From: a virus | Virus record (IMG/VR): IMGVR_UViG_3300047319_001604 | Coordinates: 1 to 31,556 of that record | Length of the DNA stretch: 31,556 bases | Reading direction: 5' to 3' (one strand) | In this document: positions 906 to 23,778 of the stretch, piece after piece | Numbering within the stretch: the stretch's first letter is position 1 | Layout of the letters: each line of letters begins with the position of its first letter | Notes under the pieces: model-generated | What the model was told of the DNA's origin: nothing | Seen by the model: the letters and a program-made list of their open reading frames with translations, nothing else | Database searches by the model: none | Made by a program: the position numbers and the translations under genes

Positions 906-1285
906 GATTTGCCCTGTCGGCTCGCGCGGAGCATGCCCTTCTCGGAGCAATCGCGGAGAGCATCCGCGACGGCACATTGCGGCTCTTCAATGGGGAGCCG
1001 CCGGGCAGCGCAAACGAGGTGACGACGCAAGAGCCTTTGGCGGCTTTGAGCTTTACGCGCGTCGCGGTCGCTGGCGGCCAGGTGTCGGCCGATATCGAAC
1101 AGGAGATCGCGGCCGCGAGCGGCCAGGCCTCATGGGCGAGGGTTTCCGACCGCGAGGGCAACCCGATCTTCGATTGCGACGTGGGTGGAGACCGGGAAGG
1201 CGCCGTGGTCACGCTCAACACGACGCAGATCAGGAAGGGCGGTCCGGTGACGATCCGCTCTTTCTCGGTGGGGCTGCGAAGGTGA
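902..1285 (+). CDS. Small phage virion-type protein, unknown function
   Basis: A 127-residue protein starting at a GTG that overlaps the portal stop. After a short helical N-terminus (residues 1-25) it appears beta-rich: L-R-L-F-N-G near 27-32, then W-A-R-V, a D-R-E-G-N-P-I-F-D segment, a D-V-G-G turn, L-N-T-T, and a closing I-R-S-F-S-V. This order (tag strand, W-x-R-V, G-N-x-x-F-D, D-V-G, L-N-T-T, S-F) recurs in small phage proteins annotated as hypothetical or fibre-like, so a structural role is likely, but I cannot name the function. No membrane segment or signal peptide is seen. Its stop overlaps the GTG of the downstream glycosyltransferase, indicating translational coupling. Confidence 0.75.
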   Translation: MRFALSARAEHALLGAIAESIRDGTLRLFNGEPPGSANEVTTQEPLAALSFTRVAVAGGQVSADIEQEIAAASGQASWARVSDREGNPIFDCDVGGDREGAVVTLNTTQIRKGGPVTIRSFSVGLRR

Positions 1286-2472
1286 GTTGGGCCTGCATTT
1301 CAAGATATGGCGGGGTCGGCGACAACCTGATCGCGTCATCCGTGCTGGCCCCGCTTCGCACGAAATACGGGCGCCTCGAGGTCATCACCCAGTGGCCGCA
1401 GCATGTTGTCTTCGAGAACAACCCGCACATCGACAAGCTGTCGGTCCACAAGCCCGGCGATATCCCGGGCGAGACCTTGGAGGCCTGGGCCCGGTGGCAT
1501 CGGGTCCGGGCGAAGGAATACGACTTCTTTGCCAACCTGTCGCACACCGTCGAGGTGTTGAAGGCGTTTCTTCCGGCACAGACGCAATTCGATTGGCCGG
1601 TCGCCTGGCGCCGCGAGTATTGCGCGGGCAGCTACATTGAGGCGGTTGCCAAAGTCTGCGGGGTCGATCCGGCCGATTGCGAACCGAGGTTTTTCCCGAC
1701 CGAGGAAGAGCACGCAAAGGCCAAGGCCACTTTCGGCGAACAGATCGGCAAGCGCCCGGTCATCGGCTGGGTCCTGTCGGGTTCTCGGGTCGACAAGATT
1801 CATCCGGCGGGAACTCTTATTGTCGCGCGTCTGATCGCGGAACTTGGCGCGCAGGTCGTGATGTTCGGAGCGCCGGGGCGGGACTATGACATGGCCGCGC
1901 GCATCCAGGAGCACGTCAAGCGGCAGAACGGCACGACCAATGGCCTCCATTCGATGTGCGACAGTTTTCAGCCGGATATGACGTTCGAGAACCAGAAGTT
2001 TCCGATTCGCCGCATCCTGACGCAACTTCGATATTGCGACCTGGTGATCAGCCCGGATACCGGACCCGCCTGGGCCGTGGCGATGGAGGACGTGCCGAAG
2101 ATCATCCTGGTGAGCCACGCCAGCGCCGAAAACATTACCGGCGGCTGGCGGAACACCGTGACACTGCATGCCGACCGGCATCGGGTCCCGTGCTGGCCCT
2201 GCCATCAGCTCCATGACACGCTCGATACCTGCACCCCGGACGAGACCAAGCAGGCCGCGGCGTGCATCTCGTCGATCTCGGTCGCGTCGATTATCGAAGA
2301 AGCGGCTAAAATACTAGCGCGGGCGGATGTCCATGCGTCTCATCATCAACGACTCGCTGCCGATCAAAGGGGCGCGACCAATGGAAGTCAGGGAACTCAA
2401 AGACGCACTCGCGGCGTTCAACCCGTCGGGAATGGTATCGGTGGCGATTCCCTCTCTGGGGCAGCCACATGA
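1282..2472 (+). CDS. GT9-like (heptosyltransferase-type) glycosyltransferase
   Basis: A 396-residue protein with the two-lobed layout of GT-B glycosyltransferases of the ADP-heptose:LPS heptosyltransferase group. The N-terminal lobe opens with a beta strand followed by G-G-V-G-D-N (residues 10-15), the family's loop after strand 1. The C-terminal lobe has V-I-G-W-V-L-S-G-S around 155-165 and the signature D-L-V-I-S-P-D-T-G-P-A near 253-263. A Cys pair (C-W-P-C) follows. It would transfer a sugar from a nucleotide donor to a glycan or protein; donor and acceptor cannot be told. I chose the GTG at 1282 because it overlaps the preceding stop and places the first strand at the N-terminus. The last 30-50 residues look unconstrained and overlap the next gene by 92 bases, so the functional protein probably ends near 2320. 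Confidence 0.85.
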   Translation: MSWACISRYGGVGDNLIASSVLAPLRTKYGRLEVITQWPQHVVFENNPHIDKLSVHKPGDIPGETLEAWARWHRVRAKEYDFFANLSHTVEVLKAFLPAQTQFDWPVAWRREYCAGSYIEAVAKVCGVDPADCEPRFFPTEEEHAKAKATFGEQIGKRPVIGWVLSGSRVDKIHPAGTLIVARLIAELGAQVVMFGAPGRDYDMAARIQEHVKRQNGTTNGLHSMCDSFQPDMTFENQKFPIRRILTQLRYCDLVISPDTGPAWAVAMEDVPKIILVSHASAENITGGWRNTVTLHADRHRVPCWPCHQLHDTLDTCTPDETKQAAACISSISVASIIEEAAKILARADVHASHHQRLAADQRGATNGSQGTQRRTRGVQPVGNGIGGDSLSGAAT

Positions 2473-2857
2473 GGTGCGGTCGATCCACCTCGTCGGACAC
2501 CTCGACCACCCCGGCGAGGTCAAGAACGACCCGGATCATCCCGGAGCTCTCGACATCGTCTGCGATTCCTGGGATGCGCCGACACTGGGCAGGCCGGCAC
2601 CGAAAATCGCCGCGCTACTGAAGATGATCGAGCCCTATCCGGACGGAATGCACGTTCGCGTCGCGGCCCCGGTGGTTCACGACAGCATGTCGCACCGGAT
2701 GCTCGATATCGTGATGATCGGCCACGCGGTCGGCACCGCGTCCGGGGTCCAGCTGGTCTGCGAAAACTGGGACAATCCCCACCAGGTCATCAAGGAAATT
2801 CCCGAGATGGCGGCTAAGCGGCTGGCTGAGGCTGCCACGGCGCAAGAGGGAGCGTAG
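2381..2857 (+). CDS. Unknown protein with tandemly duplicated domain
   Basis: A 158-residue protein of unknown function made of two copies of one domain, at about residues 5-67 and 75-133. Each copy runs: helix, P-x(1-2)-G-M, a beta strand V-x-V-A, H-x(6-8)-I then V/I-G-H, and a closing V-C-D/E-x-W-D-x-P (C61 to P67, C127 to P133). The helix then P-D/S-G-M-x-V pattern resembles small phage and plasmid proteins in which a helix is followed by a P-D-x-x-V strand. I chose the ATG at 2381 because AAAGGGG lies just upstream; ATGs at 2327 and 2333 are alternatives that increase the overlap with the glycosyltransferase. The C-terminus is Ala-rich and probably unstructured. It sits between the glycosyltransferase and a fibre-like gene. 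Confidence 0.75.
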   Translation: MEVRELKDALAAFNPSGMVSVAIPSLGQPHEVRSIHLVGHLDHPGEVKNDPDHPGALDIVCDSWDAPTLGRPAPKIAALLKMIEPYPDGMHVRVAAPVVHDSMSHRMLDIVMIGHAVGTASGVQLVCENWDNPHQVIKEIPEMAAKRLAEAATAQEGA

Positions 2858-2860
2858 GCC

Positions 2861-3262
2861 ATGGCAAATATGGGCACTTACGCCGAGAACTTCCTTCTTG
2901 CCTATTTGCTCCTCGGCGCGACGGCAACGCGCCCGGCCGCCTGGGGCATCGGGCTCTCGCTTGGTTCGCCGACATCCGTTTCCGGCAGCGAGATCGCGTC
3001 GGGCACGGGCATCGTGCGATCGAGCGGGCAATTCGTGTCGGTCAACGCCAACACCTTCAGCAACAGCGTCGCCAATACCTATGGCCCGGTCAATGCCGCC
3101 GGTAGCTATAGCGGGATTGTGATCATGGATTCGCTGCCCGCCAGCTACACGGCAGATCAAGGTCATTTGTTGATGGGCGGATTGCTCGCTACAGCACGAA
3201 CGGTCGGGTCCGGAGATTCACTTGTGCTCGCTGTGGGTGGTCTCACCGTCTCGTTGTCGTAA
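2861..3262 (+). CDS. Small tail-fibre-like virion protein, copy A
   Basis: A 133-residue protein of the small phage tail-fibre-like type. An N-terminal helix Y-A-E-N-F-L-L-x-Y-L-L is followed by G-A-T-A-T-R-P-x-A-W, the L-S-L-G-S-P strand, S-E-I-A-S-G-x-G and a C-terminal G-D-S-L-V-L-A-V-G-G-L strand. Related phage proteins begin with Y-x-E-N-x-L-L and carry T-R-P-x-A-W-Y-V-A-L-H. It is clearly paralogous to the gene at 4077-4451, which shares Y/F-A-E/Q-N-x-L-L, G-A-T-A-T-R, W-x-x-G-L-S-L-G-S-P and S-E-I-A. The two copies flank a methyltransferase gene. A virion surface or fibre role is inferred. The gene is 3 bases downstream of the previous stop. Confidence 0.8.
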   Translation: MANMGTYAENFLLAYLLLGATATRPAAWGIGLSLGSPTSVSGSEIASGTGIVRSSGQFVSVNANTFSNSVANTYGPVNAAGSYSGIVIMDSLPASYTADQGHLLMGGLLATARTVGSGDSLVLAVGGLTVSLS

Positions 3263-3265
3263 GCG

Positions 3266-4072
3266 ATGTCCGTCAAGGTCGCCAACTGCCGCCATGGGTC
3301 ACAAGTCTATCTCGATTCGGATATCTATTTCGGCCCGCTGATCGAGCGGTGCGGCGAGTACAACGAGGGAGAAGTCGATCTTTTCCGCCATCTGATCGGC
3401 GAGGGCAGCGTGGTGATCGATGCGGGCGCGAATATCGGCTGCCATACGGTACCGCTCGGGAAGATCGTCGGGCCAACGGGCATGGTGCTGGCCTTCGAGC
3501 CGCAGCGGCCGATTTATTACGCGCTTTGCGGAACACTGGCGCTCAACGAGCTTTGGCACGTCACCGCCTATCCCGTGGCCCTCGGCTCTGAGCGGGGAAC
3601 AACGAAAGTGGCCGCCATCAACTATTCGAAGCCGGCCAATTATGGCGGGGCTTCGATCGGCAACGAACTGCACGGGCATGATGTCCCCGTCGTCCGGCTG
3701 GATGATTTCGAGCTGCCGTCGCTCCGATTTATCAAAGCCGACGTCGAGGGTCACGAAACGGAATTGCTAATGGGCGCTCGAGAGACGATCCGCCGGCATC
3801 GGCCGATCCTCTACGTAGAGAACGATCGGATCGAGAACTCCGACCGGCTGATAGACACGATGCTCGGTCTTGAATACCGACTTTATCTGCACGCGCCGCC
3901 GCTGTTCAGTCCGAACAACTTCAGGGGATGCGACAAGAACCTGTTCCCCAATGTCGTGTCGGTTATGCTTCTGGGTATTCCAGCCGAAGCATCAACTTCT
4001 TTCTCGATCCACGGCATGCGGCCGATCGCCCGGCCGGAAGACATGGTGAAATTCGGCCAGTTGGTGATTTAG
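3266..4072 (+). CDS. FkbM-family SAM-dependent methyltransferase
   Basis: A 268-residue class I methyltransferase. S-adenosylmethionine-binding motif I is V-V-I-D-A-G-A-N-I-G at residues 49-58, followed by the acidic strand A-F-E-P (about 76-79) and V-x-L-D-D-F near 143-148. The FkbM-typical F-I-K-A-D-V-E-G-H-E is at 155-164 and R-P-I-L-Y-V-E-N lies at about 178-185. FkbM enzymes O-methylate sugars and polyketides, so a glycan hydroxyl is the likely target. The gene lies 3 bases after one fibre-like gene and 4 bases before its paralogue, in the same block as a glycosyltransferase. This suggests it modifies a sugar attached to, or recognised by, virion surface proteins; the substrate is inference. 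Confidence 0.9.
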   Translation: MSVKVANCRHGSQVYLDSDIYFGPLIERCGEYNEGEVDLFRHLIGEGSVVIDAGANIGCHTVPLGKIVGPTGMVLAFEPQRPIYYALCGTLALNELWHVTAYPVALGSERGTTKVAAINYSKPANYGGASIGNELHGHDVPVVRLDDFELPSLRFIKADVEGHETELLMGARETIRRHRPILYVENDRIENSDRLIDTMLGLEYRLYLHAPPLFSPNNFRGCDKNLFPNVVSVMLLGIPAEASTSFSIHGMRPIARPEDMVKFGQLVI

Positions 4073-4076
4073 GCCG

Positions 4077-4451
4077 ATGTCCGCGGGTTCCTTCGCCCAG
4101 AACCTTCTCCTCCAATATGGGCTCATCGGCGCTACGGCGACGAGGGTGACAGCCTGGAGCGTCGGGCTCTCCCTGGGATCGCCGAAAGAAGGGACACTGA
4201 GCGAGATCGCCGCCGGTTCCGGGTATGTGAGGCAGCCGATCGGGTTTGCTTCGAGCGTCGCCAACACGTTCACGAATTCGGCCGCGGTCAGTTTTGCGGC
4301 GTTCAGCTCCAATGCGACCGTCTCCGGGATCTTCGTCGTAAACAACGCCGGGAGCCTTTTGCTTTACGGCACGCTGTCCCCGGCGACGGCAATAGCGCGC
4401 GGCAGCATCGGGGTCATCGCTTCGGGGGCACTCAAGGTGGCATTGAACTGA
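4077..4451 (+). CDS. Small tail-fibre-like virion protein, copy B
   Basis: A 124-residue paralogue of the protein at 2861-3262. Shared elements in the same order are the helix F-A-Q-N-L-L-L, the segment I-G-A-T-A-T-R-V-T-A-W, the strand G-L-S-L-G-S-P, S-E-I-A-A-G-S-G-Y-V-R, an N-T-F-x-N-S segment, S-G-I-F/V and a C-terminal G-A-L-K-V strand. It conforms better than copy A to the usual family pattern (G-S-G-Y-x-R). It starts 4 bases after the methyltransferase stop. The duplication around the FkbM gene suggests either that the methyltransferase was inserted between duplicated fibre genes or that the three genes function together. Confidence 0.8.
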   Translation: MSAGSFAQNLLLQYGLIGATATRVTAWSVGLSLGSPKEGTLSEIAAGSGYVRQPIGFASSVANTFTNSAAVSFAAFSSNATVSGIFVVNNAGSLLLYGTLSPATAIARGSIGVIASGALKVALN

Positions 4452-4452
4452 G

Positions 4453-6159
4453 ATGGCAGCGGCAAATTTCGTAGCGACGCTGACGGTCGTCGGGGGCGAG
4501 ACCTCGAAAACGACCACTGTCGAAGCAGCGAGCGCTGTCCTGGCGCCCGCTGGCGCGATGGCGGCGCCACTGCTGCTCATCGATGTTCAGAGCCGGGCAC
4601 AATTTGCCGGCGCTGGGGCGATGACCTCCACGCCTTTAGCCATCGAGATGATCGTCGATGCTCTACAAACGAACAAGATCGACAACAACTCGATGCAGGG
4701 TGCGGTCGCCGGGTCTCCGGGGACAATGCCGACGCATTGGTCGGTTAATAATAGTCCAGGACTGACGCAGACAATATCGTTGAGCACGGTCAACGGTGTC
4801 GACGTAATTTCGCTCCGATTCAACGGGACGCCTACTTCTACCGGGGCGGTCCAACCGATCTTCATGTTGCCGGCGGGCGCTCTTGCGAGTTTTGGGCAAG
4901 ACTGGGATCTTTCAGCCTATCTAGCTATAATTGCGGGTAGCACGACAAACGTTACTTCTGTTAGGCTGAGTTACAACGAACAACCTCTTGGCGGCGGGTT
5001 TCTGGCCTTCCACAATGGACCCGATCTAACCTCAATTTTGACCTCGACGCTGACGCGATATTCCTATAGTGCGACTAATACCCAGGGCGCTACTGGAAGT
5101 GTCCGTCCAGTTTTTACTTTCAGTGTGACGATCGGCCAGCCGGTAGACATCACGTTTTCTATCGGGTGGCCGCAATTAGAGCTTGGCACGGCCGCGACTG
5201 CCGCCATCCGCACCACGGGTGCCGCCTCGGATGGTATGGCGCCTATGTTCCTGATGACGGCCGGCGTTCTACCGGAACAGTTCTTAGGCACCACCCTTGC
5301 TGGTGGCGGGGCCATCACAGCGGACGTCATCCCCGAGCAGTTCATTTCGGTCAGTCTCGCGGGTGCGGGATCAATAGCGGCCGGCCTGCGGGCGACCGAG
5401 CCGGTCCTCGGCGCCTTTGCGGGCGCGGGGGCCATCACAGCGGACGTCATCCCCGAGCAGTTCATTTCGGTCAGTCTCGCGGGTGCGGGATCGATAGCGG
5501 CCGGCCTGCGGGCGGCCGACGCAGTCACGGTCACCTTCGCCGCGGCCGGGTCTCTCGGCGGCGGAACGTTGACGAGAGAACAGGTCCTCGGCGCCTTTGT
5601 CGGCGCGGGTGCCATTACCGCCCCGGATATTCTGCCGCAGCAGTTTGTCACCAACGTCCTGGCTGGTGTGGGGTCGATGGCCGCCGCGCCCGAATCCGTG
5701 GATGTCGTCGTAAGCGCGTTGAACAGCGCGGGCTCGATCGCCGCCGCGGCAGGATCCGTGGGCGCCGCCATAAGCCTTTTGAGCGGTGCAGGCGCACTTG
5801 CCGCCGATTTCCTGCCGCAGCAATTCGCAAGCGCGGTCCTTGCTGGTTCGGGGTTGCTCTCGGCGAACTTAGCAGAGAAGGAACTCACGGCCGCGGCGTT
5901 CGTAGGTTTGGCGGCCTTGAGCGCCGATTTTGCCGAAAAGGATCTGGTAGCAGCGGCACTTGTGGGATCCGCGACGCTCGGCACCGATTTTGCGGCGGCT
6001 GGAACGGGGCGGGCCGTCGCAGCCGCAATGGCCGGCGCGGGTGCTCTTCGGGCGGATTTAGGCGTCATTTCGGCCGCGGCAGCCGGGGAACCCTCGATCC
6101 TCGGCGGTCATTCAGCAGGCGGCGCCGCGCCGTACGGGGCAACCTGGCCCTCTACCTGA
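4453..6159 (+). CDS. Repeat-rich adhesin- or fibre-like protein with a jelly-roll-like domain
   Basis: A 568-residue protein with three parts. Residues 1-60 are Ala/Thr-rich. Residues about 75-250 look like a beta-sandwich, carbohydrate-binding-type domain (P-T-H-W-S-V-N-N-S, G-V-D-V-I-S-L-R-F-N-G, D-L-S-A-Y-L, D-I-T-F-S-I-G-W-P-Q-L-E-L-G); the closing W-P-Q-L-E x G is typical of phage sugar-binding jelly-rolls. Residues about 265-550 are degenerate 20- and 40-residue repeats with cores such as L-A-G-A-G-S-I-A-A and A-I-T-A-D. The middle domain is encoded by noticeably AT-richer DNA than its flanks, suggesting acquisition as a module. Surface display and glycan binding are inferred; no enzyme motif is visible. 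The gene starts 1 base after the previous stop. Confidence 0.75.
   Translation: MAAANFVATLTVVGGETSKTTTVEAASAVLAPAGAMAAPLLLIDVQSRAQFAGAGAMTSTPLAIEMIVDALQTNKIDNNSMQGAVAGSPGTMPTHWSVNNSPGLTQTISLSTVNGVDVISLRFNGTPTSTGAVQPIFMLPAGALASFGQDWDLSAYLAIIAGSTTNVTSVRLSYNEQPLGGGFLAFHNGPDLTSILTSTLTRYSYSATNTQGATGSVRPVFTFSVTIGQPVDITFSIGWPQLELGTAATAAIRTTGAASDGMAPMFLMTAGVLPEQFLGTTLAGGGAITADVIPEQFISVSLAGAGSIAAGLRATEPVLGAFAGAGAITADVIPEQFISVSLAGAGSIAAGLRAADAVTVTFAAAGSLGGGTLTREQVLGAFVGAGAITAPDILPQQFVTNVLAGVGSMAAAPESVDVVVSALNSAGSIAAAAGSVGAAISLLSGAGALAADFLPQQFASAVLAGSGLLSANLAEKELTAAAFVGLAALSADFAEKDLVAAALVGSATLGTDFAAAGTGRAVAAAMAGAGALRADLGVISAAAAGEPSILGGHSAGGAAPYGATWPST
5311..5514 (+). repeat. Near-identical 84-base direct repeat, period 120 bases
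   Basis: Bases 5311-5394 and 5431-5514 are the same 84-base sequence with a single difference (A at 5373, G at 5493). The copies are spaced exactly 120 bases apart, equal to 40 codons, so the adhesin-like gene keeps its frame. A looser copy of the flanking unit (GGTCCTCGGCGCCTTTG) occurs at about 5403 and again at about 5583. Such recent in-frame duplication can expand or contract by recombination. Confidence 0.9.
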
Positions 6160-6440
6160 TGGCGTTCGGCGCGGAAGCCTCGGGCGAGGTCGAGGAGCCG
6201 AGAGAGGGCCGCGCGGCGGCTCTCTTCGGGTTCGCGGCTCGGGCGCGCGGAGCAGTCGGCGCAGCTGGGGCGCTCGAATGCCCGCTGCCGGAATTCAGTG
6301 TCGCGGTGCGCGGGGAAATCGCGCCCTGCGGCGAGATGCGAAGTTTCCTGGGTGTCGAAGCCCGGGCGGTCGGCAGGTTCGACCATTTCAGCGACGACGA
6401 AATTTCCGCGCTCTGGCCATGGCTGCTGCTGGCCGCTTAG
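6159..6440 (+). CDS. Small unknown protein between adhesin and protease
   Basis: A 93-residue protein whose ATG overlaps the adhesin stop by one base (TGATG), so it is translationally coupled. I do not recognise a family. It is Ala/Gly/Glu-rich with short alternating patterns (F-G-F-A-A-R-A-R-G, F-S-V-A-V-R-G-E) that recall the repeat units of the upstream gene, and ends with F-D-H-F-S-D-D-E-I-S-A-L-W-P-W-L-L. It could be a detached C-terminal module of the adhesin or an independent accessory. No signal peptide or membrane helix is convincing. Confidence 0.6.
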   Translation: MAFGAEASGEVEEPREGRAAALFGFAARARGAVGAAGALECPLPEFSVAVRGEIAPCGEMRSFLGVEARAVGRFDHFSDDEISALWPWLLLAA

Positions 6441-6448
6441 GGGGACGC

Positions 6449-7936
6449 ATGATCCGCACGATCTTCCCGGCGCAGGTTACCAGCCTCGGCGACGACGAGG
6501 TAGAGGTCGTCCTTTCGACCGGCCTCAAGGCGCGCGACGGTCACGTCCTCGTGCCCGAGGGCTGCGACCTCTCCGGCTACCGAAGCAACCCGATCGTCCT
6601 CTGGCAGCACTCGCCCGAAACCCCGGTCGGTCGCGCCTCGGAGATCCAGGTCAGCAACGACAAAATCATCGCGCGCATCACCTTTGCGCCCCTGGGGGTG
6701 TCGCCCAAGGCCGACGAGGTGCGCGGATTGGTCAAGGCGAACGTGATCTCGGCCGTCTCGGTGGGTTTCGACCCGGTCGACGGCGAACCGCTCGACCCGA
6801 AGCGCCCCAGAGGCGGGCAGCGCTTCACCCGCTGGGAATTGCTGGAATGCAGTTTCGTCAGCGTCCCAGCCGACCCTGGCGCGATCGTCACGGCACGTGC
6901 GAACGGAGAAATCGACATGGCGGACTGGAAAGTCGGCGCGGCGCGCAACCTCCCGGTCGAGGACAGCGACGCCTGGGACGGCCCGGCGGCCGAGAAGTCG
7001 ATCTTCGACCATGCCGGCGGCGACGAGTTCGACCCGGTGAAGGCTCGTGCGGGGTTCCTCGTCTACGACGCCGACGCGCCAAAGCTGCGCGGCTCCTACA
7101 AGCTGCCGATCGCGCACGTGGTTGACGGCGAACTGAAGGTGCCGAAGGGCGCCCTGCGCGCCGCGGCCTCGCGCCTCCCGCAGGCCGACATCGGCGACGC
7201 GAAGGACGAGGCGGAGAAGGTCCTCAAGGCCTACGAGAAAAAGGCCGGGATCGGTGATGATGCCGAGCGTGCCGTAAAACCGCGCCGGGCGCGCCGCGCG
7301 CCGCCGCCGGTGATCAGGCTGCGCGGCATGTCGGATCTTGGCCGGTTCGCCTATCTGCTCGATTGCCTCGCCGACCTCAAATGCTCAGCCGAGATCGAGG
7401 CGGCGCTTGAAGGCGACGAATCGCAGGTTCCGGCAATGATCGCCGCCGCGCTGCAGAGCGCCGGCACTGCGATGCTGGCGATGGCCGCCGAGGAGATCGC
7501 CGAGCTGATCGGCGGCGAAGAGGCCGACGACGACAGCGGCGAAGGCCTGGGCGACGACGACATGATGATGATCGTGGCCTCGACGACCCCGGCGCAGAAG
7601 CGGTTCCGCGTCGGGGCCGCTCGTGCAAGGGCGCTCCTCACCCGCAAGGGCAAGACCCTCTCGGCGGAGACCGCACGCTGCCTGCGCTCGGCCCTCGACA
7701 TGCACGACACGGCCATGGACCAGCATCGCTCGGCGATGCGGGCGCACCGCGCGGGGGCGCAATATATCCGCGACCTCATCGATCCCGAAGACGACACGGG
7801 AGACGAGAACGGCCAGGGCGCCGAAGGCGACAATTCGACAATCCAGAAGCCCAATGGCGTCGCCGAGGACGAAGGTTCGCGCAGCCTCGATTACCGCAAG
7901 CGCCAACTCGATGCGCTCCTCTTGGCAGGGGCGTAG
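6449..7936 (+). CDS. HK97-family prohead protease with long C-terminal extension
   Basis: The N-terminal 150 residues are a U35-type prohead protease, which cleaves capsid delta domains during head maturation. N-P-I-V-L-W-Q-H-S gives candidate catalytic His54, and the family signature W-E-L-L-E-C-S-F-V-S-V-P-A gives candidate catalytic Ser135. The start is the ATG at 6449 after GGGGA. Residues about 170-265 carry a second domain (D-A-W-D-G-x-A-A-E, G-F-L-V-Y-D-A-D, L-R-G-S-Y-K-L-P-I-A, R-A-A-A-S-R-L-P-Q) seen fused to or near proteases in other phages. Residues 265-495 are charged and helical (L-R-G-M-S-D-L-G-R-F-A-Y-L-L-D-C), possibly a scaffold part. At 495 residues it is well over twice the length of a plain prohead protease. 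A Dps gene follows after 5 bases. Confidence 0.92.
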   Translation: MIRTIFPAQVTSLGDDEVEVVLSTGLKARDGHVLVPEGCDLSGYRSNPIVLWQHSPETPVGRASEIQVSNDKIIARITFAPLGVSPKADEVRGLVKANVISAVSVGFDPVDGEPLDPKRPRGGQRFTRWELLECSFVSVPADPGAIVTARANGEIDMADWKVGAARNLPVEDSDAWDGPAAEKSIFDHAGGDEFDPVKARAGFLVYDADAPKLRGSYKLPIAHVVDGELKVPKGALRAAASRLPQADIGDAKDEAEKVLKAYEKKAGIGDDAERAVKPRRARRAPPPVIRLRGMSDLGRFAYLLDCLADLKCSAEIEAALEGDESQVPAMIAAALQSAGTAMLAMAAEEIAELIGGEEADDDSGEGLGDDDMMMIVASTTPAQKRFRVGAARARALLTRKGKTLSAETARCLRSALDMHDTAMDQHRSAMRAHRAGAQYIRDLIDPEDDTGDENGQGAEGDNSTIQKPNGVAEDEGSRSLDYRKRQLDALLLAGA

Positions 7937-7941
7937 TTTCA

Positions 7942-8457
7942 ATGGCGAGCCCAGCAGCCGCGCAACTCCGCCTGGCCTTGGCGGATACCTGGGCCTTCTA
8001 CTTCAAGTCGCATAGCTTCCACTGGAACGTCCAAGGGCTGCTGTTCCGCCAGTTGCATGAGTTTTTCGGCGACCTCTATTCAGATGCCAACGGCGCGGTC
8101 GATGACCTCGCCGAGCATCTTCGGGCCATCGGCGAATTGGCGCCGTCATCGCTGGTCGAGATCGATCAGCTTTCGCGCATCACGTTTGCGCCCTCGCCAC
8201 CCGACGCGATGCGGATGGTCGCAACGCTCAGCGCGGACAATGAGCTTGTCCTCGGCAGTCTTGGTGCCGCGCAGGCTGCCGCAGCAGCTTCCGGCGAGGA
8301 TGGCCTCGCGAATTTCCTGCAAGACCGGCTCGACCGGCACAAGAAATGGGGCTGGATGCTCCGAGCCACGCTCGGAACCGTCGAGGGTGAAGTTCTACGC
8401 GAAGCCGATTATAGACGGCGCGAGGTGGAGGCCTTAGCGCTCGCAGCGCCCATCTGA
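7942..8457 (+). CDS. dps: Dps-family mini-ferritin (ferroxidase site intact)
   Basis: A 171-residue ferritin-like four-helix protein of the Dps family, which oxidises Fe(II) with peroxide, stores iron in a 12-mer shell and in some cases binds DNA. The inter-subunit ferroxidase ligands are all present: His27 (in H-W-N-V-x-G), His39 (in L-H-E-F-F), Asp54 and Glu58 (D-D-L-A-E). Their spacing of 12, 15 and 4 residues is that of classical Dps proteins. R61-A-I-G completes the signature. It lacks a long Lys-rich N-terminal tail, so DNA binding through that tail is unlikely. It sits between the prohead protease and the major capsid gene, where scaffold or decoration genes usually lie. Encapsidation, protection of virion DNA or an early host effect are all possible; none is proved. 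Confidence 0.92.
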   Translation: MASPAAAQLRLALADTWAFYFKSHSFHWNVQGLLFRQLHEFFGDLYSDANGAVDDLAEHLRAIGELAPSSLVEIDQLSRITFAPSPPDAMRMVATLSADNELVLGSLGAAQAAAAASGEDGLANFLQDRLDRHKKWGWMLRATLGTVEGEVLREADYRRREVEALALAAPI

Positions 8458-8554
8458 AAATCCCCACGGGGATCGCCCAAATAAGTCGCCGCTTGGGCAA
8501 CGGCTTCCCGCAGCGTCGTGAGACGCCGCCTTCCTGATCATTGGAGCCTACTTG
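8458..8554 (+). promoter_or_regulatory. Major capsid gene leader with three stem-loops
   Basis: This 97-base gap has three consecutive inverted repeats. ATCCCC and GGGGAT are separated by 2 bases (8460-8473). GCCCAA and TTGGGC surround a 12-base loop (8475-8498). GCGTC and GACGC close a GTGA loop of the stable GNRA class (8513-8526). The ribosome-binding site is TTGGAG at 8541-8546, before ATG 8555. No T-run follows the stems, so a simple terminator is unlikely. Stabilising or translation-tuning structures for the abundantly needed capsid mRNA are the likeliest role. Confidence 0.5.
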
Positions 8555-9994
8555 ATGGAAAAGGTCAGCGACCTGATCAAGCGGCGCGCGACCGCTTACG
8601 ATGCTTTCGCGGCAATCGCCAACCTCGAAACCCTGGATGACCAGCAGAGGCGGGATTATCCGACGCTGAAGGACGCCGTCACCGACCTCGACGCGCAAAT
8701 CGTCCGGGCACGGGAGGCGCAGGAGTTGTCGGCCTCCACCGCTCGCCCGGTGGCCGGGCAGGAAAACGCCTACCGCGCGCCAGCCTCGCCGGAGAAAGAC
8801 CCCTACATCAGCGACGAGGCCGCCAAGGCGCGCGGCATCGGCACGAGCAAGGGTCTCGTCGTCGGCGGCATGATGAGGATGATCGGCCGGGCCGCGAGCG
8901 AGTTCACCTCGCCCTCGAAGATCGCGGAAGCGGTCTATGGTGCCAATCACCCGATCACCCGCGCGCTGATCACCGGCACAGGCCCGGCAGGCGGCTTTAT
9001 CGTGCCGCCCGATTACATCGCGGAGATCATCGAGCTTCTGCGACCGCTGGCGCAGGTCCGCGCCGCCGGCCCCCGCACGATCCCGATGCCCAGGGGGACG
9101 ATGAGGCTCCCCGGCCAGGCGAGCGCGGCGACGGCGTCCTACGGGGCGGAAAACACCGCTATCGCGCAGTCGCAGCAGACGCTCCGCACGATCGTCGCGA
9201 CCTACAAGAAGCTGACCGCCTTGGTGCCCGTGTCCAATGACATGATGCGGTACGCCGACCCGGCGGTTGACGCCTTCGTGCGCGACGACCTGGTGAAGGT
9301 CATCGCGCTTCGCGAGGATCTGGCATTCCTCCTCGGCGACGGTACGCAGGACACCCCGCGGGGTTATCTCAGCTTTGCCAACGGCTGGGTCGGGGCGAAC
9401 GCCGGAACGATCGGGGTGTGGTCGACGACCGCCAACTCCGTCTTCGCGGTCAACGGCACCGATCCGGCGAATACGACCGGCGGCAACTTCATTACCGCAA
9501 ACCAGACCTATACGCTGGCCACCGTCGCGGCCGAACTAGGCGGGGCCGTCAACCGGCTGGATACGGCAAACGTGCCGGACACGAAGCGCGTCTGGTTCAT
9601 GCACCCGCGCAGCTTCAACTACCTGAACAACGTCCAGAACAGCCTCGGCGTCTACGTCTACCGCGACGAATTGACCGACGGGACGCTGCTCGGCTACCCG
9701 TTCCGGAAGACCACGCAGATCGGCAACGGCTACTGGAACGCCAACGGCAGCAACAAGGACCTCTCGTTCATCTTCCTCGCGGAGATGGACGAATCGATGA
9801 TCCTCGATTCGATGCAGCTCGAACTCGCGGTCAGCCGCGAGGGAACCTACATCGATTCGACCGGCGCCACGATCTCGGCCTTCCAGAGCGACCAGACGAT
9901 CATCCGGGCAATCGCCGAGCACGACTTCCAGATGCGCCACGACCAGGCGGTCGCGGTCATCCAGGCCGTCAGGTACGCCCCGGCGATCTCGTAG
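8555..9994 (+). CDS. Major capsid protein, HK97 fold
   Basis: A 479-residue HK97-type major capsid protein forming the icosahedral shell. Residues 1-100 are charged and helical (L-I-K-R-R-A, L-D-A-Q-I-V-R-A-R-E) and fit the delta domain that scaffolds assembly and is removed by the upstream protease. From about residue 150 come G-G-F-I-V-P-P-D-Y-I-A-E-I-I-E-L-L-R, the R-x-x-G-P-R-T-I-P-M-P segment, the spine-helix-like D-D-L-V-K-V-I-A-L-R-E-D and L-A-F-L-L-G-D-G-T, and Q-S-D-Q-T-I-I-R-A-I-A-E-H-D-F near the C-terminus. All are family hallmarks. I chose ATG 8555 rather than the adjacent in-frame TTG at 8552. A candidate terminator follows the stop. Confidence 0.95.
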   Translation: MEKVSDLIKRRATAYDAFAAIANLETLDDQQRRDYPTLKDAVTDLDAQIVRAREAQELSASTARPVAGQENAYRAPASPEKDPYISDEAAKARGIGTSKGLVVGGMMRMIGRAASEFTSPSKIAEAVYGANHPITRALITGTGPAGGFIVPPDYIAEIIELLRPLAQVRAAGPRTIPMPRGTMRLPGQASAATASYGAENTAIAQSQQTLRTIVATYKKLTALVPVSNDMMRYADPAVDAFVRDDLVKVIALREDLAFLLGDGTQDTPRGYLSFANGWVGANAGTIGVWSTTANSVFAVNGTDPANTTGGNFITANQTYTLATVAAELGGAVNRLDTANVPDTKRVWFMHPRSFNYLNNVQNSLGVYVYRDELTDGTLLGYPFRKTTQIGNGYWNANGSNKDLSFIFLAEMDESMILDSMQLELAVSREGTYIDSTGATISAFQSDQTIIRAIAEHDFQMRHDQAVAVIQAVRYAPAIS

Positions 9995-10050
9995 GACGCC
10001 GCGCCCCTCCCGGGGCCGGCGCCGTCCGGCCCATCGTTTTCTTATTTTTC
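9994..10050 (+). terminator. Candidate Rho-independent terminator after capsid gene
   Basis: Directly after the capsid stop, GCCCC and GGGGC pair around a TCCC loop (10002-10015), embedded in a longer imperfect GC-rich inverted repeat whose outer arms read GGACG and CGTCC. A T-rich stretch (10037-10049) follows about 10 bases after the stem. The distance between stem and T-run is larger than ideal, so it may be a weak or partial terminator that lowers downstream expression relative to capsid. Confidence 0.4.
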
Positions 10051-10061
10051 GGAGAACTCCG

Positions 10062-10544
10062 ATGGACATGGTCATTCAGAAAGACATCGGCTCGGTCGTC
10101 GAAAACCGGGTCGCCTCAACTCCCCTGGTGTGGACCGCCGCCGGCACCGGCGACAACACGACCCTTACCGGCATCTCGATCGACCGGGAGGCCGTGCTTT
10201 CAGGGGGAGCGGGTTCGCCCGCGCTCTCGGCGAAGTTCACCGCGCTCTTCGGCACGACGCTGGCGAGCGGCGCGACGCTGAACATCGCCTGGACGATCCT
10301 CGATTCGGCCGACAACAGCACCTTCGCCACCTACGCGAGCGCCGCCGGGGTCACTGTCGCGACCGGAGTTTCGGGGGGCGGTGTCGTCAACTCGCACAGC
10401 TCGATCAACGTCAACCTCTCGTCGGCAAAGCGGTACATCCGGGCCGATATCGTGCCGAACCTCTCGGCCAGCGGTACCGACACGGCGGTAGCTATCATCG
10501 TCGCGACCCTGGCCGGGTTCGACCGGCTGCCCGCCCCGACCTGA
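10062..10544 (+). CDS. Beta-rich small virion protein, possible head decoration
   Basis: A 160-residue protein directly downstream of the capsid gene, a place often used by head decoration or stabilising proteins. It is Ser/Thr/Ala/Gly-rich with alternating hydrophobic residues that predict beta strands: T-L-T-G-I-S-I-D-R near 35, L-N-I-A-W-T-I-L-D-S-A-D-N near 79, I-N-V-N-L-S-S-A-K-R-Y-I-R-A-D near 118. The S-A-D-N-S-T-F then R-Y-I-R-A-D order recurs in phage proteins of unknown function. The GGAG ribosome-binding site lies inside the palindrome CGGAGAACTCCG immediately before the ATG. No enzyme motif or membrane segment is seen, and a decoration role is inference. Confidence 0.72.
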   Translation: MDMVIQKDIGSVVENRVASTPLVWTAAGTGDNTTLTGISIDREAVLSGGAGSPALSAKFTALFGTTLASGATLNIAWTILDSADNSTFATYASAAGVTVATGVSGGGVVNSHSSINVNLSSAKRYIRADIVPNLSASGTDTAVAIIVATLAGFDRLPAPT

Positions 10545-10563
10545 TCGGAGGACCCCTGCGCCC

Positions 10564-12021
10564 GTGTTCATCCTGCCTACCATGAACCGCCCGGAGCGGC
10601 TCCAACAGGTGCTCGACGCCTGCGTCGAGACCGGTATGACCTCGCCCGGGCTGGTTCTGATCAACGGCGCGGACCAGCGCGAGAAATACGCCGGCGTGCG
10701 GTATCCCTCGAACTGGTCCTCCCGGGTGTTGCCCAAAAATCTCGGCTTCAACGGGGCTTGCCAGGAATTCTTCGAAGATGTCCAGGCATCCCCGCGACCT
10801 CCCCTCTCTTCCTGGCTTGGGTGCATGGCCGACGACGCTATCCCCTCGACGCCGGGATGGGACCGACGGCTCCTCGCCGAACTGGAGGGCCGCATCAAGA
10901 TCGTCTCGGCAAACGACTGCTGGCAGAGCGATGCCGATCCGCTGCGATCCCGTCTTTCTCCGACCAGCGTCTTCGATCTCGGGCTCCTCGAGGCGATGGG
11001 GTTCTGGTTTCTCCCCGGGCTCTGGTCCTTCTACGCCGATAATATCATCGAGGACATCGGCCGGCGCTTCGGGTGCTGGAAGATCCTGATGGATGTCAAG
11101 GCCGAGCACAGCCACGTCCTCAACGGCAAGGCGCCCAATGACGCGACCTATGCCGCCAGCTATGCCTCGAAGAGTTCGATCGAGGCCGACGGCAGGCGGC
11201 TTCAGGAATGGGCGAAGGAGGACCGCCCGCACGTCTTCGCGCGGATCGCCGAATACTTGTGCCAGTTCACCCCGGAAGCCCCGGAGGATGCCGACGCAGC
11301 CGAGGGATTGCGGCGGCTGGAGCGCGCCCGCTCGCGCTCGGTGATGATCTGCACGCCGGTTCACCGCGACACGGCTTGGCAGTACACACGATCTCTCGTT
11401 GACACGAAGACGACGCTCGATCGCCTCGGCGTGCGCAACCGGACGCTCTTTCTCGCCGGCTGCTCGAACCTCCCCAAGGCGAGAAACGAACTGGCGGCAT
11501 GGTTTCTCGCGTCGGACTTCACCGACCTTCTTTATGTCGACGCCGACATGAGTTGGGAGCCTAACGGCGTCGCCCGGCTCCTCGCGTCCGACAAGGAGGT
11601 GATCGGCGCCGTCGGCCGGCGTAAGACCGAGGAGACGCAATGGTGCGCGCGACTCCTCCCGTCCTCGAACCACAAGATCAACCAGGACGCCATGGGCGCC
11701 GTCGAAGTTCATTCGATCGGCACCGGGTTCCTGAAGGTCGCCCGCGAGGCGCTGGACCAGATCGTTGCGGCCCGGCCCGACCTCAGAATCGACCTCCCCG
11801 GCCTCCCCGAAGAGCCGCGCTCTCGGTATCACCGCTTCTTCCGGTTTGGCGAGGACGACGGCGGCGAGGATTACCAGTTTTGCGAGCTCTGGCGTTCGGT
11901 CGGCGGGAAGGTCTGGGCCGACCCGGAGATCGAGCTCGGCCACTGCGGCGAGACCGAGTTCAGGGGCAAGTTCGCCGATGCCCTCACACCGGCACCGGCG
12001 CTTCAGGAAGCGGCCGATTAA
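10564..12021 (+). CDS. Two-domain GT2-like (GT-A fold) glycosyltransferase
   Basis: A 485-residue protein with two apparent GT-A glycosyltransferase domains. The first (about 1-230) begins F-I-L-P-T-M-N-R-P-E-R-L, the classic first strand, has K-N-L-G-F-N-G-A at 58-65 and a D-D pair at 90-91 as metal and nucleotide-binding candidate. The second (about 258-470) starts S-V-M-I-C-T-P-V-H and has L-L-Y-V-D-A-D-M at 322-329 as its DxD-type motif, then I-G-T-G-F-L, typical of GT2-like enzymes. The GTG at 10564 is chosen because it keeps the first strand, with GGAGG upstream. It follows the capsid and putative decoration genes, so glycosylation of virion proteins is plausible but unproved; a host glycan is the alternative. 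Confidence 0.85.
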   Translation: MFILPTMNRPERLQQVLDACVETGMTSPGLVLINGADQREKYAGVRYPSNWSSRVLPKNLGFNGACQEFFEDVQASPRPPLSSWLGCMADDAIPSTPGWDRRLLAELEGRIKIVSANDCWQSDADPLRSRLSPTSVFDLGLLEAMGFWFLPGLWSFYADNIIEDIGRRFGCWKILMDVKAEHSHVLNGKAPNDATYAASYASKSSIEADGRRLQEWAKEDRPHVFARIAEYLCQFTPEAPEDADAAEGLRRLERARSRSVMICTPVHRDTAWQYTRSLVDTKTTLDRLGVRNRTLFLAGCSNLPKARNELAAWFLASDFTDLLYVDADMSWEPNGVARLLASDKEVIGAVGRRKTEETQWCARLLPSSNHKINQDAMGAVEVHSIGTGFLKVAREALDQIVAARPDLRIDLPGLPEEPRSRYHRFFRFGEDDGGEDYQFCELWRSVGGKVWADPEIELGHCGETEFRGKFADALTPAPALQEAAD

Positions 12022-12039
12022 CCCCAGAGGCCAAAATCA

Positions 12040-18738: not shown

Positions 18739-19626
18739 CTAGACGAGCAGACCTTGGCCGGTCCGCGGATTATAGCGTCTCGCCCCTTTGCTTGAGTTGC
18801 ACGATGCGCATGCGAGGACAAGGTTGTTCGGGTCATTCGATCCAAGGTGGCTGCTGATTGGCAGAACGTGATCTATTGTCAAGGGCCGCTTTCGCGTAAA
18901 GGGTTTTTTGCAGAAGTGGCATTTGCTTGAAGCGGCCATCATGCGCTTGATATCCTCAGCGGTGACTTCGCCAAGTATCGACCGCTTACGAGCGCGCCGC
19001 CGATGTTCTGCTGCCCGCTTCTTTTCTGGATTGGCTTTTTTCCAGGCCCGCGAGTTCGTAGCCACCCTTTCGCGATTGGCAGCATACCAAGCATTTCCCC
19101 ACGCACGCTTCTTTTCCGGATTGGCCTTATCCCAGGCGTTAGCCCACGCGCGCACCTTTTCTGGATTAGACTTTTTCCAGGAGCGTTTTGTCGCGTTATT
19201 CTTTTCTCGATTAGCCTCGTGCCAAGCACGGTTTGACGCTGCCCTCTTTTTCGGATTGGCCTTTGCCCACGCCGTCTTTAACGCTGCCACCTTTTCCGGA
19301 TTATCTGCTCGCCAAGCCCGGCCGCATTCAACGCATGCAGCCCCGGACACAAGACGTTCCGCGACGTGCTCGCGCTTACAGGGCTTTCCGGTGAAATAAT
19401 ATTTAAGACCTAGCGCCCTGGCGCTTGTGCGGGAGATGATGCGGGGATCGCTTAATCGCGGGATCGAGATTGCGGAAATATCGACGGACCGGCGTAGGTT
19501 CTCAGCCGCGCATAAGCGACCACAAAACCGCCTTTTGCGCCATTGCCGCTGCGAATAATCGCGCGGCCGTTCAAATGCGGCGCCGCACCTTTCGCATAGT
19601 TTCGTCTCAGGCGGTGACGCAGACAT
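18739..19626 (-). CDS. HNH endonuclease with zinc finger and seven spacer repeats
   Basis: A 295-residue protein on the minus strand, opposite to all structural genes. Residues 11-39 hold a C-x2-C...C-x3-C putative zinc finger. Residues about 80-105 have G-K-P-C-K-R-E-H-V-A-E-R and C-V-E-C, a second Cys motif common in phage HNH proteins. From residue 109 come seven starts of a 15-residue helical unit with consensus N-P-E-K-x-R-A-x-x-x-A-W-x-K-A. The nuclease domain at 236-280 has C236-x2-C239, the catalytic-type D252-H253, N268 and C273-x2-C276, all the expected HNH residues. It is probably a homing or free-standing nicking/cutting endonuclease. The gene begins 6 bases after the upstream membrane protein gene. 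Confidence 0.92.
   Translation of the reverse strand: MSASPPETKLCERCGAAFERPRDYSQRQWRKRRFCGRLCAAENLRRSVDISAISIPRLSDPRIISRTSARALGLKYYFTGKPCKREHVAERLVSGAACVECGRAWRADNPEKVAALKTAWAKANPKKRAASNRAWHEANREKNNATKRSWKKSNPEKVRAWANAWDKANPEKKRAWGNAWYAANRERVATNSRAWKKANPEKKRAAEHRRRARKRSILGEVTAEDIKRMMAASSKCHFCKKPFTRKRPLTIDHVLPISSHLGSNDPNNLVLACASCNSSKGARRYNPRTGQGLLV
19033..19302 (-). repeat. Six full 45-base repeats within the HNH gene
   Basis: Six consecutive 45-base units encode 15-residue repeats (residues 109-198); a seventh, degraded unit continues to about 19003. Each unit starts N-P/R-E/K-K/R and has a Trp near position 12. The units differ at the DNA level, so this is an older array, not a recent expansion. 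It probably forms an extended, basic helical linker that contacts DNA. Confidence 0.88.
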
Positions 19627-22689: not shown

Positions 22690-23778
22690 ATGATTGCTAT
22701 CTCGACCCGCATTGAACACGGCGATTGCCTTGAGGTAATCCCGCGCCTCATCGCCGAGGGCGTGCAGGTCGACGCGGTCGTGACAGACCCGCCGTATCAC
22801 CTGATCCAGATCGCGCGAAGCCTACGCCTCGGAGACAGCGATGGTACGCGATCGGCAACGAGGCCGGTGCGGGACGCAGGCTTCATGGGTCAGCAATGGG
22901 ACGGCGGCGATATAGCCTTCCGCCCCGAGACGTGGGCCACGGTCGCCACGATCATGCGCCCCGGCGCGTTCCTGGTAGCCTTCGGCGGCACCCGCACCTA
23001 TCACCGCCTCGCCTGTGCGATCGAGGATGGCGGCTTTGTCATCCAGGACTGCATCATGTGGCTGTTCGCGACAGGCTTCCCCAAGCGCCGCGACATGCTG
23101 AAGCCCGCCTATGAGCCGATCGTCCTGGCCTACAAGCCAGGGGGCAAGCGGACAATGCAGGTGGACGAATGCCGGATTGCGATGGCGCGCGATGACGGCT
23201 GGGATGTACCGCGAATGTCATTCGACGGGGACGCGCGAGTATTCGGCTCGAACGGCCGCATCGACGATCGCAGCACACCACACACCGCAGGCCGCTGGCC
23301 TGCTAACATCTGCCACGACGGCTCTGACGAGGTGATAGCGGCGTTCCCCGATAGCGCGGGCGCGGTGAGCAATGGCCGATCTGGGGTTGCTGGCATTTAT
23401 GAAGATGGCGTGGGGCCCGCGCCGCAGCTTCCTTCGTTCGGTGATACTGGCTCTGCCGCCCGATTTTTCTTTTCGGCCAAGGCAGGCGTACCAGATCGTT
23501 GGGGCAGCCGCCATCCGACCGTGAAGCCGGTCGAGCTGATGAAATGGCTCGTCGCCCTTGTCACCCCGCCCGGCGCTACCCTGCTCGACCCCTTCGCCGG
23601 CAGCGGCTCCACGGGTGTTGCCGCCCTCGCGACCGGGCGCGACGCGATCCTGGTCGAGCGCGAGGACGCGTACATCGCCGACATCCGCGAGCGCATGGCG
23701 CATTACGCGGGCGACGGGCGCCATTCGCTGGCCAGCAAGGGACGGCATGCCGCCGATAAAGTGGGGACGCTGATCTGA
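22690..23778 (+). CDS. Site-specific DNA methyltransferase (beta-type, adenine-N6 or cytosine-N4)
   Basis: A 362-residue DNA methyltransferase. Catalytic motif IV D-P-P-Y is at 33-36 near the N-terminus, and the SAM-binding motif I D-P-F-A-G-S-G at 300-306 is near the C-terminus, giving the circularly permuted order of the beta group. A-Y-E-P-I-V-L-A-Y-K-P and H-P-T-V-K-P-V-E-L-M-K-W are also family hallmarks. No restriction enzyme gene is nearby, so it is an orphan. It would methylate phage DNA, probably to protect it from host restriction or to alter regulation. Its place between the tape measure gene and the next tail gene is uncommon. It begins 3 bases after the tape measure stop; a nine-codon ATG reading (22686) precedes it and is ignored. 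Confidence 0.9.
   Translation: MIAISTRIEHGDCLEVIPRLIAEGVQVDAVVTDPPYHLIQIARSLRLGDSDGTRSATRPVRDAGFMGQQWDGGDIAFRPETWATVATIMRPGAFLVAFGGTRTYHRLACAIEDGGFVIQDCIMWLFATGFPKRRDMLKPAYEPIVLAYKPGGKRTMQVDECRIAMARDDGWDVPRMSFDGDARVFGSNGRIDDRSTPHTAGRWPANICHDGSDEVIAAFPDSAGAVSNGRSGVAGIYEDGVGPAPQLPSFGDTGSAARFFFSAKAGVPDRWGSRHPTVKPVELMKWLVALVTPPGATLLDPFAGSGSTGVAALATGRDAILVEREDAYIADIRERMAHYAGDGRHSLASKGRHAADKVGTLI

Follow-up and report, generated by a model that had tools for sequence, protein, structure and literature searches.

The 31,556-base sequence analyzed here, referred to as the window, is a virus record from IMG/VR. Its plus strand encodes, in this order, a portal protein cut by the window start (3–905; Phage_portal, E 2.4e-45), a prohead protease (6449–7936, with the start codon at 6449 chosen by eye) and a major capsid protein (MCP) with the HK97 fold (8552–9994), which together represent an HK97-type head module. 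The protease comprises a Peptidase_S78 domain (E 6.5e-8), a helical middle, a disordered linker and a C-terminal tail, SLDYRKRQLDALLLAGA, encoded with its stop codon at 7886–7936. The MCP was assigned by Phage_capsid (E 3.9e-37 over residues 147–471) and TIGR01554 (E 5.2e-48); its open reading frame (ORF) starts at 8552 (TTG) or 8555 (ATG), and the ~146 residues preceding the Phage_capsid match are delta-domain-like by position. Between protease and MCP, on the same strand, lies dps (7942–8457), encoding a 171-residue protein with a Dps core (about residues 6–147) and a C-terminal tail (residues 148–171). An earlier note on this DNA had reported a co-directional Dps mini-ferritin gene at this place, and the domain matches of its neighbors bear this out.

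Several other genes were recorded in and beyond the module. The region from portal to protease (906–6159) contains a GT9-like glycosyltransferase, an FkbM methyltransferase, two small paralogous proteins (2861–3262 and 4077–4451; 43% identity), one of which weakly matches a head protein, and an Ala/Gly-rich 568-residue protein (4453–6159) lacking a PHROG match and containing near-identical stretches at 5294–5399 and 5414–5519. Shortly 3′ of the MCP gene, a glycosyltransferase-2-like protein (10564–12021) matches a PHROG moron glycosyltransferase (E 1.7e-15) and is also present in many relatives. An HNH/endonuclease VII-like gene with a 45-bp tandem repeat (19063–19167) is located on the minus strand (18739–19626) inside the plus-strand late operon, and an N6/N4 DNA methylase gene (22690–23778) directly follows the tape-measure gene.

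The dps product is a member of the Dps family. It matched PF00210 (Ferritin) with an E value of 1.2e-19 (71.1 bits, cut-off 24.5) and PHROG 3636 with 9.2e-25, and its closest solved relative by sequence in the PDB was 8ff9 (E 2.7e-22). AlphaFold2 predicted helices at residues 4–29, 35–62, 71–77, 89–116 and 120–168 (mean pLDDT 96.2). All of the best 50 PDB matches to this model in Foldseek were Dps-family chains, with P. aeruginosa Dps PA0962 at the top (1.1 Å over 140 columns). The inter-subunit ferroxidase ligands His, His, Asp and Glu are present as H27, H39, D54 and E58, in agreement with the earlier note, and an alignment of 16 viral Dps shows no variation at these positions. Four positions after H39, where an acidic residue is expected and the three PDB sequences compared have Glu, the window protein has Gly43. 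Related viral Dps, too, most commonly have glycine here (in 48 of 71 motif-matching sequences, from 79 scanned) and, because this position is accessory, the family assignment is not withdrawn. Scores below the curated NCBIfam cut-offs for haloarchaeal DpsA (49.8 versus 170 bits), cyanobacterial DpsA (39.5 versus 300) and PRK09448 Dps (29.7 versus 114) showed that the protein belongs to none of these three named equivalogs. By analogy with its family, the window Dps would oxidize iron.

The arrangement of the locus suggests that dps shares the expression of its neighbors. The protease stop codon (7934–7936) is followed by 5 nt and the dps ATG at 7942, with a possible plus-strand ribosome-binding site read from the sequence, AGGGG (7927–7931), inside the end of the protease gene; ~95 nt separate dps from the MCP gene. 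Since consensus scans of 6200–10600 detected no sigma-70-like promoter on the plus strand and a single plus-strand terminator-like site, at 10013, co-expression of dps with protease and MCP is likely. These scans thus gave dps neither a promoter nor a terminator of its own, the features by which an autonomous accessory gene (moron) can be recognized. By eye, an inverted repeat, ATCCCC-AC-GGGGAT, was seen directly after the dps stop (8460–8473) and also after the protease stop of a sister phage introduced below.

The second property of a moron, presence in one strain and absence at the same junction in close relatives, was found. The identical gene (0 nt differences) occupies the same location in three other contigs, which we call siblings. 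These are 98.6–99.7% identical to the window over aligned stretches and, therefore, form one population with it; their identical dps indicates that the gene is no assembly accident. A sister phage, IMGVR_UViG_3300046463_000849 (loci L036 and L115), has an MCP 99.4% and a protease 97% identical to those of the window and lacks dps. In blastn comparisons, window 5981–7897 matched L036 669–2589 (97.0% over 1,921 columns) and window 8458–12024 matched L036 2643–6209 (95.4% over 3,567 columns). These breakpoints delimit a 560-nt plus-strand segment (7898–8457), covering the end of the protease gene and the whole of dps with its tail, that replaces 53 nt of L036 (2590–2642). In the sister, 94 nt lie between the protease stop and the MCP start. 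The four contigs and the precise empty site ruled out assembly artefact or contamination as the source of dps. Besides the window, we counted 109 distinct head modules containing both protease and MCP; dps was present in three of them, all siblings, and absent from 106. The gene was also absent from all 13 cellular-genome loci with a related MCP, 12 of which belong to Alphaproteobacteria and one to a gammaproteobacterial metagenome-assembled genome. Hence, dps is a recent gain by the window phage and not a normal part of the HK97-type head module of its relatives, as the earlier note had supposed without noticing the near-identical sister that lacks the gene. A search for relatives of the window Dps in host genomes, using a single sequence and exact 8-residue seeds, a setting that is too strict, returned none.

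We then considered what normally occupies the space between protease and MCP, with duplicate loci left out by hand. Six annotated relatives opened from 58 matched records showed no annotated gene there. Among six wide-gap relatives inspected, three had a likely intervening gene, and none of these was a recognized scaffold: an Acb2/Tad1 hairpin-domain gene of the anti-CBASS type (L086:3784–4017; PF24729, E 1.5e-17), an ORF with a weak, sub-threshold ribbon-helix-helix match (L038) and a gene for an 88-residue unknown protein (L108). Together with the 94-nt gap of the sister, these data do not support a scaffold or decoration gene as the usual occupant, which the earlier note had assumed in proposing that the Dps associates with the capsid. 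Instead, accessory genes seem to insert in this gap, and those of relatives lack the tail of the window Dps.

This distribution speaks for the main rival explanation. As an ordinary moron, dps would encode a late cytosolic enzyme that stays outside the head and shields either the host cell during infection or the DNA under replication against iron and peroxide; its tail would be a by-product of recombination in the 3′ end of the protease gene. Its absence from the sister and from most head modules, and the anti-CBASS gene in the same gap of a relative, are in line with such an origin. Dps is also encoded by many viruses outside head modules: a Phage_capsid match was found in four of 104 Dps contigs tested (from a total of 112), namely the three siblings and the contig L197, and none of three annotated phage dps genes that we opened stands beside head genes. 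Furthermore, published phage Dps are interpreted as host-protection enzymes in the accounts given in PMC8008677 and PMC6669764. Because the accessory genes in the gap of relatives are tail-less, a moron with a passenger tail keeps a real share of the probability. We nevertheless consider it unlikely in view of the tail itself, which the earlier note had missed.

The tail, EGEVLREADYRRREVEALALAAPI, corresponds to codons 148–171 and the stop of dps (8383–8457, plus strand) and is extra to the Dps core. Both the protease and the Dps of the window thus end in a tail. Within this family, protease ends consist of an acidic, variable linker, a motif near [S]-A-D-[FY]-R-R-R-Q-A-[DE]-L-L-A-L and a few further residues. 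We built a profile from 78 of 88 distinct protease tails, setting aside the window (L034), the sister (L115) and eight distant proteases (L145, L146, L147, L148, L150, L151, L152 and L154) that by eye mostly lack the motif; accordingly, motif counts hold for the nearer family. There, a strict motif occurred in 36 of 78 tails and in none of the random internal segments, and a loose R-x-R pattern near the end in 70 of 78 tails versus a mean of 1.7 of 78 random internal segments. Inspection by eye revealed no evident motif in six named phages that are more distant.

Searched against the C-terminal 60 residues of each of 8,804 distinct six-frame ORFs, this profile recovered the Dps with an E value of 9.2e-7 (27.5 bits). 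The other matches outside the listed proteases, L065 and L073, are ORFs that directly precede the MCP gene and are cut off by the contig start; they were read as truncated proteases. The next ORF belonging to neither group had an E value of 0.025. In six-fold cross-validation, the Dps scored 25.0–28.5 bits, similar to the protease tail of the window (25.4–27.8 bits); that of the sister scored 32.5–35.4 bits. The Dps lies above the median of held-out true protease tails, 19.9 bits. Of these 78 tails, 17 scored 27.5 bits or more and 14 scored below 10 bits, showing that the motif is not universal even here. Across 2,000 shuffles of the Dps tail, the maximum was 11.0 bits. When the set was extended to 386 loci with 20,433 ORFs, mostly within 5–6 kb of protease, MCP or Dps genes, 86 matches at E ≤ 0.05 were obtained, comprising 85 proteases identified by their bodies and the Dps, so that no further tail-bearing cargo of this phage family was found among these ORFs. 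At the level of sequence, these searches establish that the Dps tail is homologous to the prohead protease tail of the family.

Codon comparison suggests some age for the peptide. When 12 codons of the Dps tail are aligned with those of the sister protease tail, 11 of 12 amino acids are identical, compared with only 3 of 12 codons and 23 of 36 nucleotides, which argues that the peptide has been kept over a long time. This conservation may have acted on the protease or on the Dps, as the four identical dps copies fit both. A DNA pattern search for the tail donor yielded four stretches, from the sister protease and the three siblings only; as the pattern was built from these very tails, the informative result is the absence of other matches.

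Comparison with other viral Dps showed the tail to be peculiar to the window population. It was present in none of 109 other viral Dps (30 from a first virus search and 79 from a second), with a best profile score of 1.0 bit among the latter 79, and plasmid Dps among the matches listed end at residue 146 or earlier. Two candidates for a second case of tail borrowing were rejected. In L006, L007 and L010, the Dps is extended at its C terminus by another sequence, about 35 residues long, which has a conserved EEVKTYFLNP at its end and no second copy in the three contigs. L171, encoding the nearest viral Dps (58%), has a short basic extension of its own (L171:6408–6471) and lacks a Phage_capsid match. 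Two further observations concern the search results: L206, a 4.6-kb virus contig, has two Dps-like matches on opposite strands, and OR850242, OR845009, OR847788 and OR848339, filed as ‘phage’ records of Staphylococcus and Listeria, are short or lack annotation, match Dps and may contain host DNA.

It is this evidence that weighs against a moron with a passenger tail. The Dps tail is complete and in frame, its end coincides exactly with the old boundary, and its score is that of a genuine protease tail, while the protease retains its own. A recombination by-product would require a duplication of the tail that happened to keep the frame, and none of the 109 other viral Dps bears such an end.

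The reading that we prefer, at a probability of roughly 0.6, is that the Dps is a procapsid cargo that is loaded by its tail, works like the ferritin-like cargo of encapsulins, oxidizes iron and lowers peroxide damage in the head. The protease-type tail, combined with the report that green fluorescent protein (GFP) carrying a fused segment of the gp4 protease is taken into HK97 particles (PMC11626933, citing Woods 2023), makes cargo loading the best explanation. The capsid association guessed in the earlier note thereby gains support from a feature other than the one on which it had been based. That the tail acts as an encapsidation signal in the proteases of this family is suggested by analogy with HK97 gp4 and with SPN3US gp245, for which the C-terminal region of the protease is proposed to be a prohead-targeting signal in the text of PMC7411985. 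For T4, PMC9958956 describes an N-terminal capsid-targeting sequence of roughly ten residues that brings foreign proteins into the core. An AlphaFold2 model of the window protease (mean pLDDT 71.7, pTM 0.31), usable for its outline only at these values, predicted a disordered linker (residues 444–476, pLDDT < 50) and a last helix (479–493; numbered from 6452).

In the proposed mechanism, a recently acquired dps would be co-expressed with the head module of an HK97-type phage; prophages of the phage’s relatives lie mainly in Alphaproteobacteria. The C terminus of the dps product would be a copy of the docking tail that ends the prohead protease of the family. If the protease docks in the procapsid through this tail, a Dps with the same tail type may be co-packaged, being taken up, probably as a dodecamer, during assembly. 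Within the head, it would bind and oxidize iron, so that packaged or incoming DNA might suffer less peroxide damage. Loading, retention in the virion and iron chemistry are steps that we infer. For HK97 Prohead 1, PMC12749128 gives about 60 protease copies, 415 MCP copies and the gene order portal, protease, MCP. Dps shells are about 9 nm wide according to PMC11202242 and the head, therefore, has room for them. More tentatively, and with doubts outweighing confidence, the HK97-type protease tail might be a natural portable cargo tag in general, by which the Dps would be packaged in the virion, store iron in the head and perhaps be ejected with the DNA, making it the phage equivalent of the iron compartments of encapsulins, whose shells share this fold.

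Two other functions were considered for the tail. A Dps multimer might display protease-type tails that bind MCP, and so add to the internal scaffolding of the head, its iron chemistry being a secondary trait. The many tails that a 12-subunit shell would display, their position on the predicted long helix (residues 120–168) and the adjacency of dps to the protease and MCP genes would suit such an assembly aid, but the other relatives seen, including the sister phage, manage without Dps, and the metal ligands are conserved although a pure scaffold would not need them; we give this idea little credence. C-terminal tails of some mycobacterial Dps have been proposed to bind DNA, and a function of that kind, unrelated to capsids, is the least probable of all. 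The four Arg of the tail, and the presence of a single basic residue among the first 14 of the N terminus, would favor it; against it, the tail has more acidic than basic residues (six versus four) and its match to protease tails reaches 27.5 bits versus at most 11.0 for shuffles.

If the cargo reading is correct, the window phage would provide a natural case of an HK97-fold virus capsid that uses a short C-terminal peptide to load an enzyme of the ferritin family, following the encapsulin principle. Such a capsid would bear on the relationship between encapsulins and phage capsids and offer a mechanism for virion-borne enzymes as well as a natural tag for loading phage shells. The tail profile provides a sequence test for other virion cargo. 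At present, the tailed arrangement is known from one phage population, represented by four contigs with identical dps, and in the open-licence literature we found neither a phage Dps bearing the tail of its own prohead protease nor a Dps in phage heads.

Compared to known systems, the window Dps resembles bacterial Dps (nearest solved relatives P. aeruginosa PA0962 and 8ff9) in fold, core length and the His/His/Asp/Glu ligands and differs by its 24-residue protease-type tail, by Gly43 in place of the Glu of the PDB sequences compared and by its location in a phage head operon. Phage Dps are already in print: PMC8008677 and PMC6669764 describe them in gut Gratiaviridae, 36 other gut phage genomes and Lactobacillus plantarum phages, in the last of which dps is located near replication genes (PMC6669764). 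These and the phages of PHROG 3636 share with the window a dps in a tailed phage; however, the 109 viral Dps lack a capsid-type tail. The nearest parallel in gene order is L197 (IMGVR_UViG_3300026570_000264), with terminase, dps (L197:779–1219), an unknown gene, portal and a protease/MCP fusion, where dps likewise lies among HK97-type head genes but in another slot and without the protease-type tail. Encapsulins, as described in PMC11202242, combine ferritin-like cargo proteins (FLPs) of the ferritin superfamily, C-terminal targeting peptides and an HK97-fold shell, the same working principle as proposed here. In the window, by contrast, the shell is a DNA-packaging phage MCP (TIGR01554) accompanied by portal and protease, and the peptide is of the protease-tail type; moreover, encapsulated FLPs form no cages according to the same source, whereas Dps does. 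The window system, thus, works like an encapsulin FLP cargo system without being a member, since its shell is no encapsulin. Lastly, in the HK97-type protease and T4 capsid-targeting systems (PMC11626933 and PMC9958956), a short segment similarly carries proteins, foreign ones included, into the procapsid. Those fusions are man-made, whereas in the window a phage genome appears to have made one itself, on a ferritin.
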